Assembly: GCF_900258435.1 (NCBI RefSeq)
Contig: NZ_LT992558.1
Location: 2,619,889 to 2,683,888, forward strand
DNA: 64,000 nt
Reading direction: 5' to 3'
From: Carnobacterium divergens
GTDB taxonomy: Bacteria; Bacillota; Bacilli; Lactobacillales; Carnobacteriaceae
Part shown: positions 23,678-64,000 of the stretch, piece after piece
Layout: each line of letters starts with the position of its first letter
Position numbering within the stretch: the stretch's first letter is position 1
Program-made: the position numbers and the translations under genes
Notes under the pieces: model-generated
Told to the model about the DNA's origin: nothing
Database searches by the model: none
The model's input: the letters and a program-made list of their open reading frames with translations, nothing else

Positions 23678-24427
23678 TTATTTACTTGGTACGTCGCTTA
23701 ATGTCCAAGTTAAATTTGTTGAATATTTAACGGCGTCTTTTGGTGTTGTTCCTGGAATTGACAGTGTAATTGCTTTATTTTTCTTAACTGTTTCCCCATC
23801 TACTTGAGTGTCTTCCAATGTTCCAAATACATTTAACCAAGTTAATGCTCCTTGTCCTTCTTTAGCGCTCATTACTTCAGAAGCTGCTCCCGCTGAATCT
23901 AGAATTACGTCGCTAACTGTTGGTGCTACAACATTTGTTGTATTGCTTACCGCTGCTCCGCCTGTTAACGATAATACAGAACCCGTCAATTCTTTATTGG
24001 TCGTTGTTTCATTTTTTAATTGACCTTCTTGCTTGACTGTTAACGTCCAACCAGCGTTGTTCCCACGGGTATCTGTAACTTGCACGTAGTTAGCTCTTGC
24101 TGTTCCATCTTTTAATTTTTGTGGTTCTGCAAAGTAAATGGCATCTTTGTTTGTAATTTTATTGCTTCCAAAGCTTAAGCTTGAAGCGTAATCAATACTT
24201 AATGGACCTGCTGTTCCTGGATCTGGATCCGTTCCATCTGGGTTCGTAGGTGTTACTTCTTTGCCTGGATTTTCTGGATCGGTTGGTGGAGTAACCATAT
24301 TATTTGGAACGAATTCTACTGATCCTGTTGAACGATAGGTGCCACCATCTGCAGCGTTAGCTACTGTTGAAAAACTAGCAGCTGTTAATAGTAACGCTGT
24401 ACTTGTCATTATTTTAGTTAATTTCAT
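23678..24427 (-). CDS. WxL-domain surface protein
   Basis: 249 residues: signal peptide to about residue 25 (NAAD), Asp/Pro-rich linker almost identical in layout to the next gene (TPPTDPENPGKEVTPTNPDG), and a WxL domain with GPLSIDYASSL, GWTLTVKQEG and a C-terminal NLTWTLSDVP. It is closest to the protein at 62920 (shared KKNKAITLS and GTTxKDAVKY phrases), so the two clusters have corresponding members. A GGGGGA site precedes the ATG, which lies 14 bp inside the LPXTG gene, giving translational coupling. Confidence 0.95.
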   Translation of the reverse strand: MKLTKIMTSTALLLTAASFSTVANAADGGTYRSTGSVEFVPNNMVTPPTDPENPGKEVTPTNPDGTDPDPGTAGPLSIDYASSLSFGSNKITNKDAIYFAEPQKLKDGTARANYVQVTDTRGNNAGWTLTVKQEGQLKNETTTNKELTGSVLSLTGGAAVSNTTNVVAPTVSDVILDSAGAASEVMSAKEGQGALTWLNVFGTLEDTQVDGETVKKNKAITLSIPGTTPKDAVKYSTNLTWTLSDVPSK

Positions 24428-55913: not shown

Positions 55914-57398
55914 TTAAATCGCTTTCCAAACAATTGAAGTAGCTAAACCTGGCTCTTCTCCTTTAGTCCACCACTGTGCTTGGTAGCCTTTTCCTTTGTA
56001 GGTAACCTTATCCCCTGCGACATAGGTTTTGGTTGCATCCCATTCATTACTTGGAACTTCAGGACCTTCTATCGTTTTCACCGAAAGTAATGTACTCCCT
56101 AATGATATGTTTCCCGCACGATCGGTTGCTTTGATTTGATAACTGTAACTAGTAGCTGGTTTTAAACCGCTATCGCTGTATGTTGTCCCCTTTGCAGTTC
56201 CAACGATGACGCCATCGCGTAGAATTTGGTAACTTGTCACGCCAATATTGTCTGTTGATGCTGTCCAATCCAACTGAACTTGGTTAGCGGTTATGTTACT
56301 CGCTTTTACATTCGTTGGAGCTGATGGCTTTTCCGTATCTGCCACACCTCCACCACCGTTAATCAATGTATCATACGCTTTTGAAAATCCTTGATTGTAA
56401 GCAACGCCATTGACATCCTTGCCTAAATCCCAGTTAATCGACCAAGTCATCAGCCCTTTAATAGGATTGCCGTCTTTTTTTAATTGATCAAAGACGTTAT
56501 ACACTACTTGTGGATCTTTAACATAACCTGATGCTCCTGCATCATTATTAGCTGGTAAACCGATTGCTAATTTTGAAGCTGGAATTTGTAAGAAGCCTCG
56601 TGTCCCATGAATTAAAGAATCTGCCATATAATAAAGAAATTCATATTTATAAGCATCATCATTTTGGGTGACCCATTTGCTGATTTCATCTACCCAAACA
56701 CCATCTCCACCTTGGTTGTACAATTGTGGTGCGATAAAATCATACTCATCTTTTAATGAAGTTAAATAAGATTCATACGCATTTCCAGGTTTTAAATAAG
56801 GGAATTCTGGTGCCATGCTAATAATAAAGTTTTGATTTTGAGCTTTGTAATGTGCTTTCACGATTTTTAGAGCTTTAGGAATAACCGTTTTGTTATCTCC
56901 TGCTGTAATGGCTGCTTGTTCTAAATCGATATCAATTCCATCAAAGCCATAGGTTTCGACTAAACGAATCAGTTCATTTGCAAATGCTGTTTCATCGCCA
57001 TTTTTTAATTGCACATGAGCATCCGCTCCACCTAATGAAATCAAAACCGGTTTGCCCGCTTTATTTAGTTCTCCGACTTGCTGGCGAAATTCTGCATCTG
57101 TTCCTTTGTAAGGTTTAAAAGTTGGAATTCCTTCCCCTTTCATAAAGGCTACTGCAACAACATTATATGCGTCTGGTGTATCTCTCAATGCAATTTCTGC
57201 TGAAGAACCACGTTTATATCCATCATTAGGATTGGCTTGCCAGTTATGCCAAAATCCCATTAAAATCTGTTTATTTTCAATACTTGGCATGACTGAAGCA
57301 TCATCTGCCGCATTTACCTTTAATTGCTGAACTAAAAATAAAGAACATGCTGTTACTCCTAAAATTAATCCTTTTTTAAACAAGTTTCCCTTTTTCAT
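55914..57398 (-). CDS. secreted GH18 chitinase with FN3 and CBM5/12 modules
   Basis: 494 residues: signal peptide (1-30, ending VNA), GH18 catalytic barrel (about 43-330) with the catalytic motif FDGIDIDLE (general acid Glu), SLGG at the substrate-binding strand and MTWSINWD at the last strand; FN3 domain (about 353-440); C-terminal chitin-binding CBM5/12 (about 452-494) with AWDATKTY-like WDATKTYVAGDKV and the exposed QAQWW pair. It hydrolyses chitin or related GlcNAc polymers outside the cell. AAGGAG is 8 nt before ATG 57398. A CRE overlaps the start region, so glucose repression is expected. No lytic monooxygenase gene is adjacent. Confidence 0.95.
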   Translation of the reverse strand: MKKGNLFKKGLILGVTACSLFLVQQLKVNAADDASVMPSIENKQILMGFWHNWQANPNDGYKRGSSAEIALRDTPDAYNVVAVAFMKGEGIPTFKPYKGTDAEFRQQVGELNKAGKPVLISLGGADAHVQLKNGDETAFANELIRLVETYGFDGIDIDLEQAAITAGDNKTVIPKALKIVKAHYKAQNQNFIISMAPEFPYLKPGNAYESYLTSLKDEYDFIAPQLYNQGGDGVWVDEISKWVTQNDDAYKYEFLYYMADSLIHGTRGFLQIPASKLAIGLPANNDAGASGYVKDPQVVYNVFDQLKKDGNPIKGLMTWSINWDLGKDVNGVAYNQGFSKAYDTLINGGGGVADTEKPSAPTNVKASNITANQVQLDWTASTDNIGVTSYQILRDGVIVGTAKGTTYSDSGLKPATSYSYQIKATDRAGNISLGSTLLSVKTIEGPEVPSNEWDATKTYVAGDKVTYKGKGYQAQWWTKGEEPGLATSIVWKAI

Positions 57399-57820
57399 TC
57401 TCAAAACTCCTTATCAACTTTTATTTTTTAAAAGCGCTTTCAACAGTCATGTTATAATAAAAAAAATAAATTGTCAAAATTTAAGACAAAATTCTATTAC
57501 TATTTTAAGCTATATTGCCAATCGATTAGTATACCAATTTACAACCACATTAATTATCATTTCAACTTCTAATTAATTTATCCTTCATTATATATAGACC
57601 AATTTTTCTATTAATCAATTTTATTTTCAGAATTTTTTCAGTTAATAAAAAATTAGAATCATACTTTTTTCTATTTTATAAAAAAAGAGGAAATCCTTAT
57701 TCAAATGATTGTTTTTAAGGTATACTTATTGAAGATAAAATAACTAATTTATAAATAAATACTCTCTACTAGTACTATTTTTATCTACATATAAAACAAC
57801 CAAAAGGAGACTTACTACTT
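57399..57820. other. 422-bp divergent AT-rich intergenic region
   Basis: No gene seen. It holds the chitinase promoter (TTGACA at 57477-57472 on the minus strand) and CRE, a very AT-rich middle, and a TATACT at 57720-57725 that may serve the YhgE/Pip gene. Confidence 0.55.
57429..57442. promoter_or_regulatory. CRE (CcpA site) of the chitinase gene
   Basis: On the minus strand TGAAAGCGCTTTTA, one mismatch from TGNAANCGNWNNCA. It lies just downstream of the promoter (TTGACA at 57477-57472), a repressing position. Confidence 0.75.
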
Positions 57821-60532: not shown

Positions 60533-60550
60533 TCGTTTTTATAATAACAA

Positions 60551-60590
60551 AAAAACACGTTTCCTTTTATAAAATAGGAAACGTGTTTTT
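60551..60590. terminator. bidirectional terminator
   Basis: AAAAACACGTTTCCT and AGGAAACGTGTTTTT, 15-bp perfect stem with a 10-nt loop. Confidence 0.93.
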
Positions 60591-60609
60591 AACTTTTTTA
60601 ATTACATTG

Positions 60610-60834
60610 CTACCATTCTTTTGCTACTAATCCCTCATCCCACAAATCCATATTTAGCACTGTCACTTCTGGGCCAATTGTTTTTTTTATAAACTCTTTC
60701 ATTTCAGAAAAATTTAATTCATTTTTTAGCACAATAGTTCGATTCGTAAACCATTTCTCCCGACGAGGGCTAGCTGGGACTTCTAGGCTTACTAAATAGA
60801 CAAAGCAATCGTCCCAATTTTGTTCGATTCTCAT
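60610..60834 (-). CDS. hypothetical 74-residue protein
   Basis: Small soluble protein with an alternating strand/helix pattern (CFVYLVSLEVPASPRREKWF, then ELNFSEMKEFIKKTIG). No family recognised. AGGAGGA lies 5 nt before the ATG, a strong site that argues for a real gene. It is 42 bp downstream of the WxLIP gene on the same strand with no obvious terminator between, so it may be the last gene of WxL cluster 2. Confidence 0.6.
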   Translation of the reverse strand: MRIEQNWDDCFVYLVSLEVPASPRREKWFTNRTIVLKNELNFSEMKEFIKKTIGPEVTVLNMDLWDEGLVAKEW

Positions 60835-60876
60835 GGTTTTCCTCCTATTTTATCCATCATGCAACTTAGTATTGAG

Positions 60877-61995
60877 TTATTGATTGCGTTCTTGCTGTTT
60901 CATTTTTTGTGCATTTCTCTTTCTTTTAGCGTTTCTTCTTCTTTGCTCTTTTTTTCTTTGCTCTTCTCGTTTTTGTTTTTCCTTCTTTTTCTTTCTTATA
61001 ATAAACCAAATTAAAAAGATCGCAATTAAAATTAATAAACTACCAATTAAGATATACAACCATGTATAATCTTTTTTGACGGTGACATCTTTTTCATTAA
61101 AGGCTTTAGCTACTTCTGATTTGATGGTGAAATCTTTTTTAAATTTCCAAGTTTCTCCCATTGATTTTGCAGTCATTGACAACGTGTAGTCTCCTGCTTT
61201 TAATTTTTCACCGTTTAAAGATACCGGATAGTCAAATGACGTATTGGGCGCCATTTGCATTCCTTCTTTTTTTGAAGCATATAAAACTTCTTTGTCCCCT
61301 TTTTTTGTTACTTTTGAATCAATTGATAATTGATTCATATATTTAGGTTTTGTATTTTGAAGCGTTGCATTAATGACGTTTCGCGCATTGACTTGATTAG
61401 GTGCAACTTTTTCTAATGTTAATTCTGAATCAACTTGTGTTTCTGATTCATTTAAGACTACCGCCACCACATATGCATATTTATTTTCAATTGCTAAGCC
61501 TTGACCTTCTTGTTTTTTCTTTTCTTCATGGGTATCTTTTTCTTTTAAAGTAATTCCGCCAGCTAATATACCGTTAAATCCGTCCTTAGGAACTTCAACT
61601 GTTAACTCCAAATCCGTTGCACCATTTGCTGGAATCGTAACCTCTTTGACTGCTGGTTTCACGATTTCCTCAATATTGTATTGACTTGTTTTATTTAATT
61701 TTGTGTTTGATTCCCCATATTCAACTACACCATTGATATTCGTAGTTGCTGCATGAACAGAAGGCTCTACCGTCACTTCCTTATCAGTGTCATTACGCAT
61801 ATGAACTTTTAACACTTGCTTCTCTTCAGGTTTCACACGCAAATCAAAATAAGTTTTTGATAAATCGTTTTGATTTTCTGGAATAATAGGTTCGACACTA
61901 AATTTTAATTGCGAAGCATTTACTTGCGGAATCAAACTGAGCACTCCAATAAAAATAATACATAAAAATGCAATTTTTTTCTTTAAATTTGACAC
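60877..61995 (-). CDS. WxL protein-interacting protein (DUF916/DUF3324)
   Basis: 372 residues, the same length as the paralogue at 21704. Signal peptide (to about residue 27), DUF916 (LKFSVEPIIPENQNDLSKTY), DUF3324 (QVNARNVINATLQN), one membrane helix (about 318-340) and an extremely basic tail. I chose GTG 61995 because AGGAGG lies 8 nt upstream; the ATG at 62001 is only 2 nt from that site. Anchors the WxL complex to the membrane. Separated from the upstream WxL gene by a hairpin. Confidence 0.92.
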   Translation of the reverse strand: MSNLKKKIAFLCIIFIGVLSLIPQVNASQLKFSVEPIIPENQNDLSKTYFDLRVKPEEKQVLKVHMRNDTDKEVTVEPSVHAATTNINGVVEYGESNTKLNKTSQYNIEEIVKPAVKEVTIPANGATDLELTVEVPKDGFNGILAGGITLKEKDTHEEKKKQEGQGLAIENKYAYVVAVVLNESETQVDSELTLEKVAPNQVNARNVINATLQNTKPKYMNQLSIDSKVTKKGDKEVLYASKKEGMQMAPNTSFDYPVSLNGEKLKAGDYTLSMTAKSMGETWKFKKDFTIKSEVAKAFNEKDVTVKKDYTWLYILIGSLLILIAIFLIWFIIRKKKKEKQKREEQRKKEQRRRNAKRKRNAQKMKQQERNQ

Positions 61996-62030
61996 AAACA
62001 TTTCCTCCTAATAGTTAAACAAAATAACCA

Positions 62031-62058
62031 TAGGAACCCATCAAAAAATGGATTCCTA
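62031..62058 (-). terminator. hairpin between WxL and WxLIP genes of cluster 2
   Basis: TAGGAACCCAT (62031-62041) pairs with ATGGATTCCTA (62048-62058), one G-U. The minus-strand T-tract is weak, so partial termination or an mRNA-processing stem is likely. It matches the hairpin at 22853-22881 in cluster 1 by position. Confidence 0.5.
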
Positions 62059-62073
62059 CAGAAATTTTTTTAA

Positions 62074-62874
62074 TTAATTGCCTGGTGTTTCTGGTTCTGT
62101 ATTACCTGGTACATCTGTTAATGTCCAAGTTAAGGTTGTTTTGTATGTGTCTGCATCCTTAACAGTAGCTCCTGGTACACTTAGTTCAATGCTTTCTGCC
62201 ATTGTTGAAACATCTCCTGAGCGATAAACCCATGTACCAAAACCTTCTCCTTTAGAAGCTGCCATCACATTTTCAGCGACACCCGTTCCATCAGCTTTTA
62301 ATGAAAATGATTTTTTCACTGTACTTGGTGCTTTAGAGCTTGATGCTGAGGCTACTTCACCATTATTGAATGTAATTTCAGCTCCAACTAATTCTCTGCT
62401 TTCTTTTACAGATTTAAATTGACCATTTTGTTTTACGCTTAATGCCCAGCCTTTTTCACCACCACGTTTATCCGTAACTTGTGCATAATTAGGTACTGGA
62501 TTTTTTGTATCAATTTCTCCATCCGCACCTCTTAAAAATTGTGGTTTTGCAAAATAGGATTGATTTTTATTTGAAATCAATTGTTCGCCAAAATCTAAAC
62601 TTGACGCATAATCTAAACTCAATGGTCCATTTGTACCTGGCTCAACTGGTTTTTCTGGATCTGTTGGGTCTACTGGTTTTACTGGATCGGTTGGATCTGG
62701 ATCAGTTGGGTCTGTTGGATCAGTTGGTGATTCGTCTTCAATAAATTTTACTTGTGCATTTGTGTCGCGATTTGCTGGAATAGGGCCTGGTGCTGCTGAA
62801 ACATGACCCACTCCACTTAATAATAATGTACTGAATAAAACAGTTCCTACGGTTGCTAATTTTAATGATTTCAT
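62074..62874 (-). CDS. WxL-domain surface protein
   Basis: 266 residues: signal peptide (to about residue 27, VSAA), a long Pro/Asp/Thr repeat linker (about 48-82), and a WxL domain with GPLSLDYASSLDFG, GWALSVKQNG (first Trp-x-Leu) and TLTWTLTDVP (second), then a short tail after the second motif. Counterpart of the gene at 22901 (shared MAA-KGEG-GTWVYR phrase). GGAGAAATG precedes the ATG. It is 45 bp downstream of its sister WxL gene. Confidence 0.94.
   Translation of the reverse strand: MKSLKLATVGTVLFSTLLLSGVGHVSAAPGPIPANRDTNAQVKFIEDESPTDPTDPTDPDPTDPVKPVDPTDPEKPVEPGTNGPLSLDYASSLDFGEQLISNKNQSYFAKPQFLRGADGEIDTKNPVPNYAQVTDKRGGEKGWALSVKQNGQFKSVKESRELVGAEITFNNGEVASASSSKAPSTVKKSFSLKADGTGVAENVMAASKGEGFGTWVYRSGDVSTMAESIELSVPGATVKDADTYKTTLTWTLTDVPGNTEPETPGN
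62645..62735. repeat. imperfect tandem repeats encoding a Pro/Asp/Thr linker
   Basis: GGATC(T/A)GTTGGG-type units repeat about seven times within the WxL gene and encode PTDP/DPTDP steps. Likely slippage-prone, with variable linker length between strains. Confidence 0.6.
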
Positions 62875-62919
62875 TTTTTCATTTCTCCTCTGTTTTTGAC
62901 TAATTATTAGTTTTTTGTA

Positions 62920-63741
62920 TTAAACTTCAGGTGTTTCAGTATTTCCTGGAACATCTGTTAATGTCCAAGTTAATTTTGTATCGTATTTTACTGCATCTTT
63001 AGCGGTTGTTCCTGGAACAGATAAAGTAATCGCTTTATTTTTCTTAACAGATTGTCCATCAATTTCCATTTCTTCTACTTTCCCAAAACGATCTACCCAA
63101 GTTCCGGCACCTGCTCCTTTATCTGCAGTCATTACTTTTGTTACTGTATTTGGTGTTAAAGCCATATCAACTGTTTTTGGGGCAATTACATTCTCGACTG
63201 TTGAAGCAGCTTCACCTTGTGTAAAGGAAATTTGTGATCCAGTTAATTCTTTGTTTAAAGTTTTTTCATTTTTAAATTGTCCTTCTTGTTTAACTGTTAA
63301 TGTCCAACCACCATTGTTCCCGCGTTTATCTGTAATTTGTACGTAATTTGGTCTTGCAGTTGATTCATCAAAATCTGAAAGATCTTCATTCCATAAATAT
63401 TGTGGATTTGCATAGTACATTTCATCTTTATTTGTAATTTTATTTTTCCCAAAATCTAAACTTGACGCAAAATCAATACTTAAAGGTCCATCTGTACCAG
63501 GATTTGGTTTGTGATCTGGTGTTGTTGGGTCCCATGGGTTTACAGGTTTATTGGGATCTGGGTTTTCTGGATCAACTGGGTCTGTTGGGCTATCATCAGG
63601 TACAAATTCTACTATACCACCACTTTGATACGTTCTTACATAGTCTTCTCCACTTTCGTCTGCTGCTAATGCTTGCACTCCTGTTCCTGCTAAAGTAGCA
63701 AGAATCATTGCTGTTGTTGTACCATATTTAACTAATTTCAT
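62920..63741 (-). CDS. WxL-domain surface protein
   Basis: 273 residues from ATG 63741, which has AGGAGG 9 nt upstream. Signal peptide (to about residue 26, ALAAD), Pro/Asp/Asn-rich linker, and a WxL domain with GPLSIDFASSLDFG, GWTLTVKQEG and KLTWTLTDVPGN. Counterpart of the gene at 23678. As written, the frame is open upstream through the LPXTG coding region with no stop, so a fused protein is also readable; see the separate LPXTG entry. Confidence 0.93.
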   Translation of the reverse strand: MKLVKYGTTTAMILATLAGTGVQALAADESGEDYVRTYQSGGIVEFVPDDSPTDPVDPENPDPNKPVNPWDPTTPDHKPNPGTDGPLSIDFASSLDFGKNKITNKDEMYYANPQYLWNEDLSDFDESTARPNYVQITDKRGNNGGWTLTVKQEGQFKNEKTLNKELTGSQISFTQGEAASTVENVIAPKTVDMALTPNTVTKVMTADKGAGAGTWVDRFGKVEEMEIDGQSVKKNKAITLSVPGTTAKDAVKYDTKLTWTLTDVPGNTETPEV

Positions 63742-64000
63742 AATGAAATTCCTCCTGAGATTTTTTTTATTTATACTAATTAATAGCACAGCCGTTGATA
63801 ATAAACTGCCACCTATTAATAATAAATAACTATCATTAGTCTCGCCTGTTTGCGGCAATTTTGTTAATTGCCCTTCTTCATTTCTTATCTCTCCATTTTG
63901 ATTACTCGATGGAGGAACAAGTTGATTTGGATTATCAAAATCCGAATCTGGATATTCATATTCCCCATAAAATCCCACTCCACTATTAGAGTCGTAAGAC
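63742..64000 (-). CDS. small LPXTG-anchored surface protein, 5' end beyond window
   Basis: Partial. The visible part reads GVGFYGEYEYPDSDFDN, a polar middle, LPQTGE, a hydrophobic helix and a basic end. It corresponds to the cluster 1 protein at 24414 (SFYGDYE, LPQTGE). Reading right to left, the frame does not stop but continues into the WxL gene. Removing one base from the T8 run at 63761-63768 would instead end it at a TGA overlapping the WxL ATG, the coupling expected from cluster 1. Either a frameshift in this copy or a true read-through fusion. Confidence 0.8.

Follow-up and report, generated by a model that had tools for sequence, protein, structure and literature searches.

The window, by which we mean the whole 64,000-nucleotide stretch of Carnobacterium divergens DNA analysed here, runs at its right-hand edge into a group of surface protein genes on the minus strand. 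The outermost is the 3′ part of a gene for a small LPXTG surface protein of the CscD type (63742–64000; NCBIfam NF053819, Pfam Gram_pos_anchor), whose start lies outside the window and whose LPQTG motif (63858–63844) precedes a transmembrane segment and a Lys/Arg tail. Next comes a small WxL gene (62920–63741; Pfam WxL, 231.6 bits) that opens with an ATG at 63741–63739 and encodes 273 aa with its own signal peptide; its AGGAGG ribosome-binding site, at 63751–63756, stands 9 nt 5′ of the ATG. A second small WxL protein gene (62074–62874; Pfam WxL, 236.8 bits) and a gene for a WxL-interacting protein of the DUF916-DUF3324 or CscA type (60877–62001; WxLIP_PGBD 133.2 bits, WxLIP_HBD 178.1 bits) belong to the same cluster, and PF13731 is present in both small WxL proteins. 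Upstream of the LPXTG gene, outside the window, is a 1123-aa ORF with a WxL-like C-terminal region, together with two ORFs on the opposite strand, one of 479 aa that may encode a regulator and one of 164 aa.

This arrangement is a csc (cell-surface complex) cluster as defined by Siezen et al. 2006 (PMC1534035), the cscA–cscD clusters also being called WxL clusters (PMC1534035; WxLIP paper, PMC10599100). It has a DUF916 (CscA/WxLIP) gene, at least two WxL-domain proteins (CscB/CscC) and a short CscD LPXTG protein with a signal peptide, though the last has no separate ORF. The large WxL, small CscD-type LPXTG, two small WxL and DUF916-DUF3324 genes follow the same order as in other csc clusters, and, the fusion described below aside, the cluster is an ordinary one. 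Such clusters are abundant in these bacteria, with 37–53 WxL genes in 13–17 csc clusters in C. divergens and C. maltaromaticum (PMC5341603), and CscD proteins are described as having 90–140 residues, with a short mature peptide (PMC1534035; PMC10599100). What sets this cluster apart is a CscD frame that lacks its own stop and continues into the frame of the CscB-type WxL gene.

Several other features of the neighbourhood may be recorded. The sister genome G001 is 97% identical to the window up to position 60533. The entire csc cluster, about 9.3 kb long (window 60533–64000, continuing to about G000:C4:2689764), is an extra block relative to G001, whose corresponding site has just 34 bp. By eye, both genomes show hairpin-like sequences at the junction. 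At 62028–62061 on the minus strand, the gap separating the DUF916 gene from the second WxL gene holds a terminator-like hairpin of 15 pairs with a T-rich tail, which, being within the presumed operon, could attenuate DUF916 expression; compared with shuffled sequences there was no excess of promoter- and terminator-like sites. Near the surface cluster is a GH18-type chitinase-like gene (55914–57404, minus strand), in which inspection by eye suggests a fibronectin type III-like stretch and, C-terminally, a carbohydrate-binding-like region.

Direct reading of the sequence bears out the central observation of the preliminary description, namely that the LPXTG frame (minus strand) meets no stop, passes through a run of eight A residues (A8; T8 on the plus strand, 63761–63768), the AGGAGG and the WxL ATG at 63741, and enters the WxL ORF. 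The fused LPXTG–WxL ORF occupies 62920–64000 of the window and begins beyond it; as read from the genome it has 387 codons in all from its ATG (MSKKILI...PEV), with the LPQTG at residue 76 and the WxL methionine at residue 115, and it ends at 62920, the end of the WxL gene. Its N-terminal part matches NCBIfam NF053819 (EF0750_LPXTG) at 87.7 bits against a cut-off of 47, with LPXTG_anchor at 29.3 bits, and its C-terminal part is the Pfam WxL domain scored above. Frame reading likewise agrees with the earlier statement that the fusion hinges on a single base in the A tract, and all three phases at the junction yield plausible proteins. With one base fewer the frame would end KKISGGISL at a stop, giving a 4-nt overlap with the WxL gene of a kind known in other clusters, whereas the third frame, NKKKSQEEFHYEIS, terminates 14 nt into the WxL gene. 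Runs of exactly eight A or T number 151 in a 400-kb sample of the genome (97 of them inside genes), and the A8 run is by itself unremarkable.

The direction of the one-base change can be read from homologues. The nearest homologue of the window cluster is a paralogous cluster in the same genome (G000:C4:406687, L002), 79% identical in DNA over the region, and this has a copy in the sister genome G001 (L010). Both have the same gene order at the junction, but both have one base more in the tract: the window reads ATAAATAAAAA-AAATCTCAGGAGG where the two homologues read ATAAATAAAAACAAAAAACAGGAGG, that is, A8-TCT in place of A5-C-A6. In L002 and L010 the LPXTG frame ends ...KNKKQEEIYNEIN at a stop 14 nt inside the WxL gene. 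The equivalent frame in the window, ...KKKSQEEFHYEIS, ends with the same 14-nt overlap, and the corresponding stop site, ATGAAATTAGTTAA (63728–63741, minus strand), is still present here, out of phase. Cluster 1 of the window has this layout too, its LPXTG stop overlapping the WxL start by 14 nt at 24414–24427 (minus strand), coordinates that were correct as first given. Because the homologues are one base longer at the tract, the ancestral layout most likely had one base more. The preliminary description had proposed the opposite, a junction restored by removing one base; the KKISGGISL frame that it named is indeed there, closed by a TGA overlapping the ATG, but by homology the base is missing and not extra.

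Two further features of the family bear on how such a change could arise. First, the LPXTG stop shifts from cluster to cluster (−29 to +28 nt), lying between 29 nt into the WxL gene and 28 nt ahead of it, and overlaps are common, so that the exact 3′ end of the gene is weakly constrained. Second, the nearest paralogues already have a WxL frame that is open backwards across the tract, so that any net loss of one base there would cause fusion.

Fusion is not a state that the EF0750_LPXTG family readily produces by chance. We searched 395 Lactobacillales genomes, one genome per species, with the NF053819 profile, and among the roughly 150 matches listed the open frames are 111–175 aa long in all but that of the window, which is 429 aa (including the stretch before the start codon). 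No other fusion was found in two further samples of 29 and 15 genomes. Long frames with family matches in G141 and G190 proved to be other long surface proteins and not fusions, that in G183 an LPXTG protein of 272 aa that ends in its anchor, and at a long-frame locus in G060 no LPXTG ORF of more than 200 aa was found. A search of a plasmid collection returned no close copy of the window locus. The fusion is real in the sequence, and rare.

The plasmid search did yield a second case. On the Enterococcus mundtii P6 plasmids pP6-3 (NZ_CP083698; L125:2930-3310) and pP6-4 (NZ_CP083696; L127), an A12 run sets an LPQTN protein in frame with a WxL gene, while in three related E. mundtii plasmids the tract is A5-G-A7 and the two genes are separate. 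As in the window, a small LPxT-type csc protein is fused in frame to the next WxL gene; the differences are that the motif is LPQTN, that the tract is A12, that the protein is only about 30% identical to that of the window and that both plasmids come from one assembly. The E. mundtii fusion is independent of that in the window and, by comparison of the tracts, came about by loss of one base (A5-G-A7 to A12). In both lineages the base is lost from A-rich lysine codons, and in E. mundtii it is the interrupting base; the A8 of the window would be explainable by the same simple path, loss of an interrupting base. The P6 LPxT-type gene is missing from the plasmid gene table.

On balance we think that the fusion reflects a near-neutral, tolerated loss of one base at a dispensable 3′ end of the LPXTG gene. 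The starting state would have been an ordinary csc/WxL cluster with a small LPXTG gene whose end overlapped the WxL start; one base would then have been lost from the A-rich lysine-tail codons, putting the LPXTG gene in frame with the WxL gene and leaving the LPXTG stop codon unread. The one-base gap in the alignment with the closest paralogue and its G001 copy falls exactly in the tract, as expected of such a loss. The loss would be tolerated because it affects only the last few codons, for a cytoplasmic tail cut off by sortase, and because the AGGAGG and ATG of the WxL gene are left in place; with its own strong start in every phase, the WxL protein should be made regardless. A precedent is offered by Antonov et al. 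2013 (PMC3711429), who found singleton frame transitions to be enriched at the 3′ ends of genes and suggested tolerated indels over sequencing errors as their source.

What a chain read through the junction would look like can be predicted. Its order would be signal peptide, LPXTG site, transmembrane hairpin, second signal peptide and WxL domain. A simple scan places hydrophobic segments at residues 1–26 and 84–106 and an ALA-AD site near residue 140, and finds the second signal peptide only moderately hydrophobic. The LPQTG at residue 76 would be followed by a basic loop, NKKNLRRNFIMKLVKYG, and then by the WxL signal peptide ending in ALA-AD, after which the mature WxL protein would begin ADESGEDY; the junction peptide would span NKKNLRRNFIMK. 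Processing by sortase and signal peptidase is what established sorting-signal rules lead one to expect, and cleavage by sortase at LPQTG and by signal peptidase I at ALA-AD would give the usual two mature proteins, so that the fused product is probably cut into the same two proteins that separate genes would supply. We infer that the organism truly lacks the base, that it tolerates the loss and that any fused chain is processed.

The chief alternative is an error of sequencing or assembly, under which the organism would have one more base in the tract, leaving two distinct genes that overlap by 14 nt as usual. Runs of A are the most frequent site of sequencing error, and the warning already sounded that the A8 fusion might be one has substance. 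One added base exactly recreates the layout of the closest paralogue, of its G001 copy and of cluster 1, and the fused state is a singleton among the roughly 150 matches listed, as an isolated error would appear. There are moreover about 190 A/T runs of at least 8 per 400 kb, by extrapolation over a thousand genome-wide, so that even a low error rate leaves a few errors and there is room for a single one. We assessed the accuracy of the assembly by aligning a 400-kb sample of the genome to that of G001. In this sample 251 of 260 G001 genes are intact in the Carnobacterium assembly (252 of 255 in the reverse direction), and coding A/T runs equal those of G001 in length for 250 of 251 7-runs, all 62 8-runs and 7 of 8 longer runs, the sole length difference among the 9–10-runs breaking the G001 gene. 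The agreement of coding-run lengths with G001 indicates that homopolymer calling is good. Some 70 coding A/T runs of 8–10 set against G001 contained no homopolymer-linked frameshift specific to this assembly, a count that bounds the error rate only, and the assembly as a whole (2.80 Mb in 4 contigs) is rated 100% complete. These figures speak against an error, which we consider the less likely reading. The same sample has, at about position 173001 (G000:C4:2475444), an intact gene for about 349 aa that is split in G001 beside an A tract, which reads A9 here and C-A7 there.

Phase variation, in which slipped-strand changes in A8 would reversibly toggle between separate and fused proteins under selection, appears improbable. 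In the inlA gene of Listeria monocytogenes, pure A6 and A7 tracts change at about 10^-8 to 10^-6 (about 5.5e-7 for A6 to A7), whereas an interrupted tract is highly stable (below about 3e-10; PMC2831843), and from this the A8 run may be somewhat mutable today, which is no proof of a selected switch. The likeness extends to a short run, pure in A6/A7 as against interrupted, that shifts the frame of a surface protein; the inlA tract, however, is at the 5′ end of its gene, where a change truncates the protein, and that of the window at the 3′ end, where a change merges genes. Plausible proteins from every junction phase, and the 6 of 32 non-coding 8-runs that differ in length between the sister genomes, also favour the idea. 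Two lines of evidence oppose it. First, at a contingency locus relatives would be expected to share a long simple tract in the same position. The comparison of run lengths across relatives, proposed earlier as a check, does show the tract to differ, but with the interrupted A5CA6 in the nearest paralogues and A runs of 3–7 in other tails, no long homopolymer is kept at the junction. Given this and the stops that range over −29 to +28 nt, the junction, to judge from these alignments, is not a maintained contingency locus, and to call it a classic phase-variation site is not borne out. Second, the suggested alternation between a fusion and two proteins is hard to see as meaningful given a strong WxL ribosome site in every phase and sortase and signal-peptidase sites that should separate the products; with WxL made from its own start and a fused chain expected to be processed, there would be little for selection to act upon. 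A literature search found no published link between WxL clusters and phase variation.

We regard as quite improbable the proposal that the fused frame is both real and useful, with CscD and CscB made as one polyprotein carrying a transmembrane hairpin between them and split later by sortase and signal peptidase. Least probable of all is programmed frameshifting or transcript slippage at A8, by which some ribosomes would terminate and others make a deliberate fusion: an in-phase A AAA AAT could act as a slip site with a Shine-Dalgarno sequence nearby, but neither a slip motif nor a frame relation is conserved across homologues, the frame relation varying among clusters, the RNA fold around the junction is not unusual (z −1.35), and the fused frame in the window requires no recoding.

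The consequences differ with the reading. If the missing base is an error, the locus is a warning for annotation, the automated call being a 387-aa 'WxL protein' with the CscD gene missed. If the polyprotein were true, wall-anchored and WxL protein would be made in equal amounts, and such an arrangement would have arisen at least twice, here and in E. mundtii. If, as under the tolerated loss that we favour, the base is truly absent, single-base changes in lysine-tail codons would be the way in which csc genes drift among overlap, near-abutment and fusion, and this cluster would offer a simple natural case in which to ask if one chain can comprise both a sortase substrate and a secreted protein.
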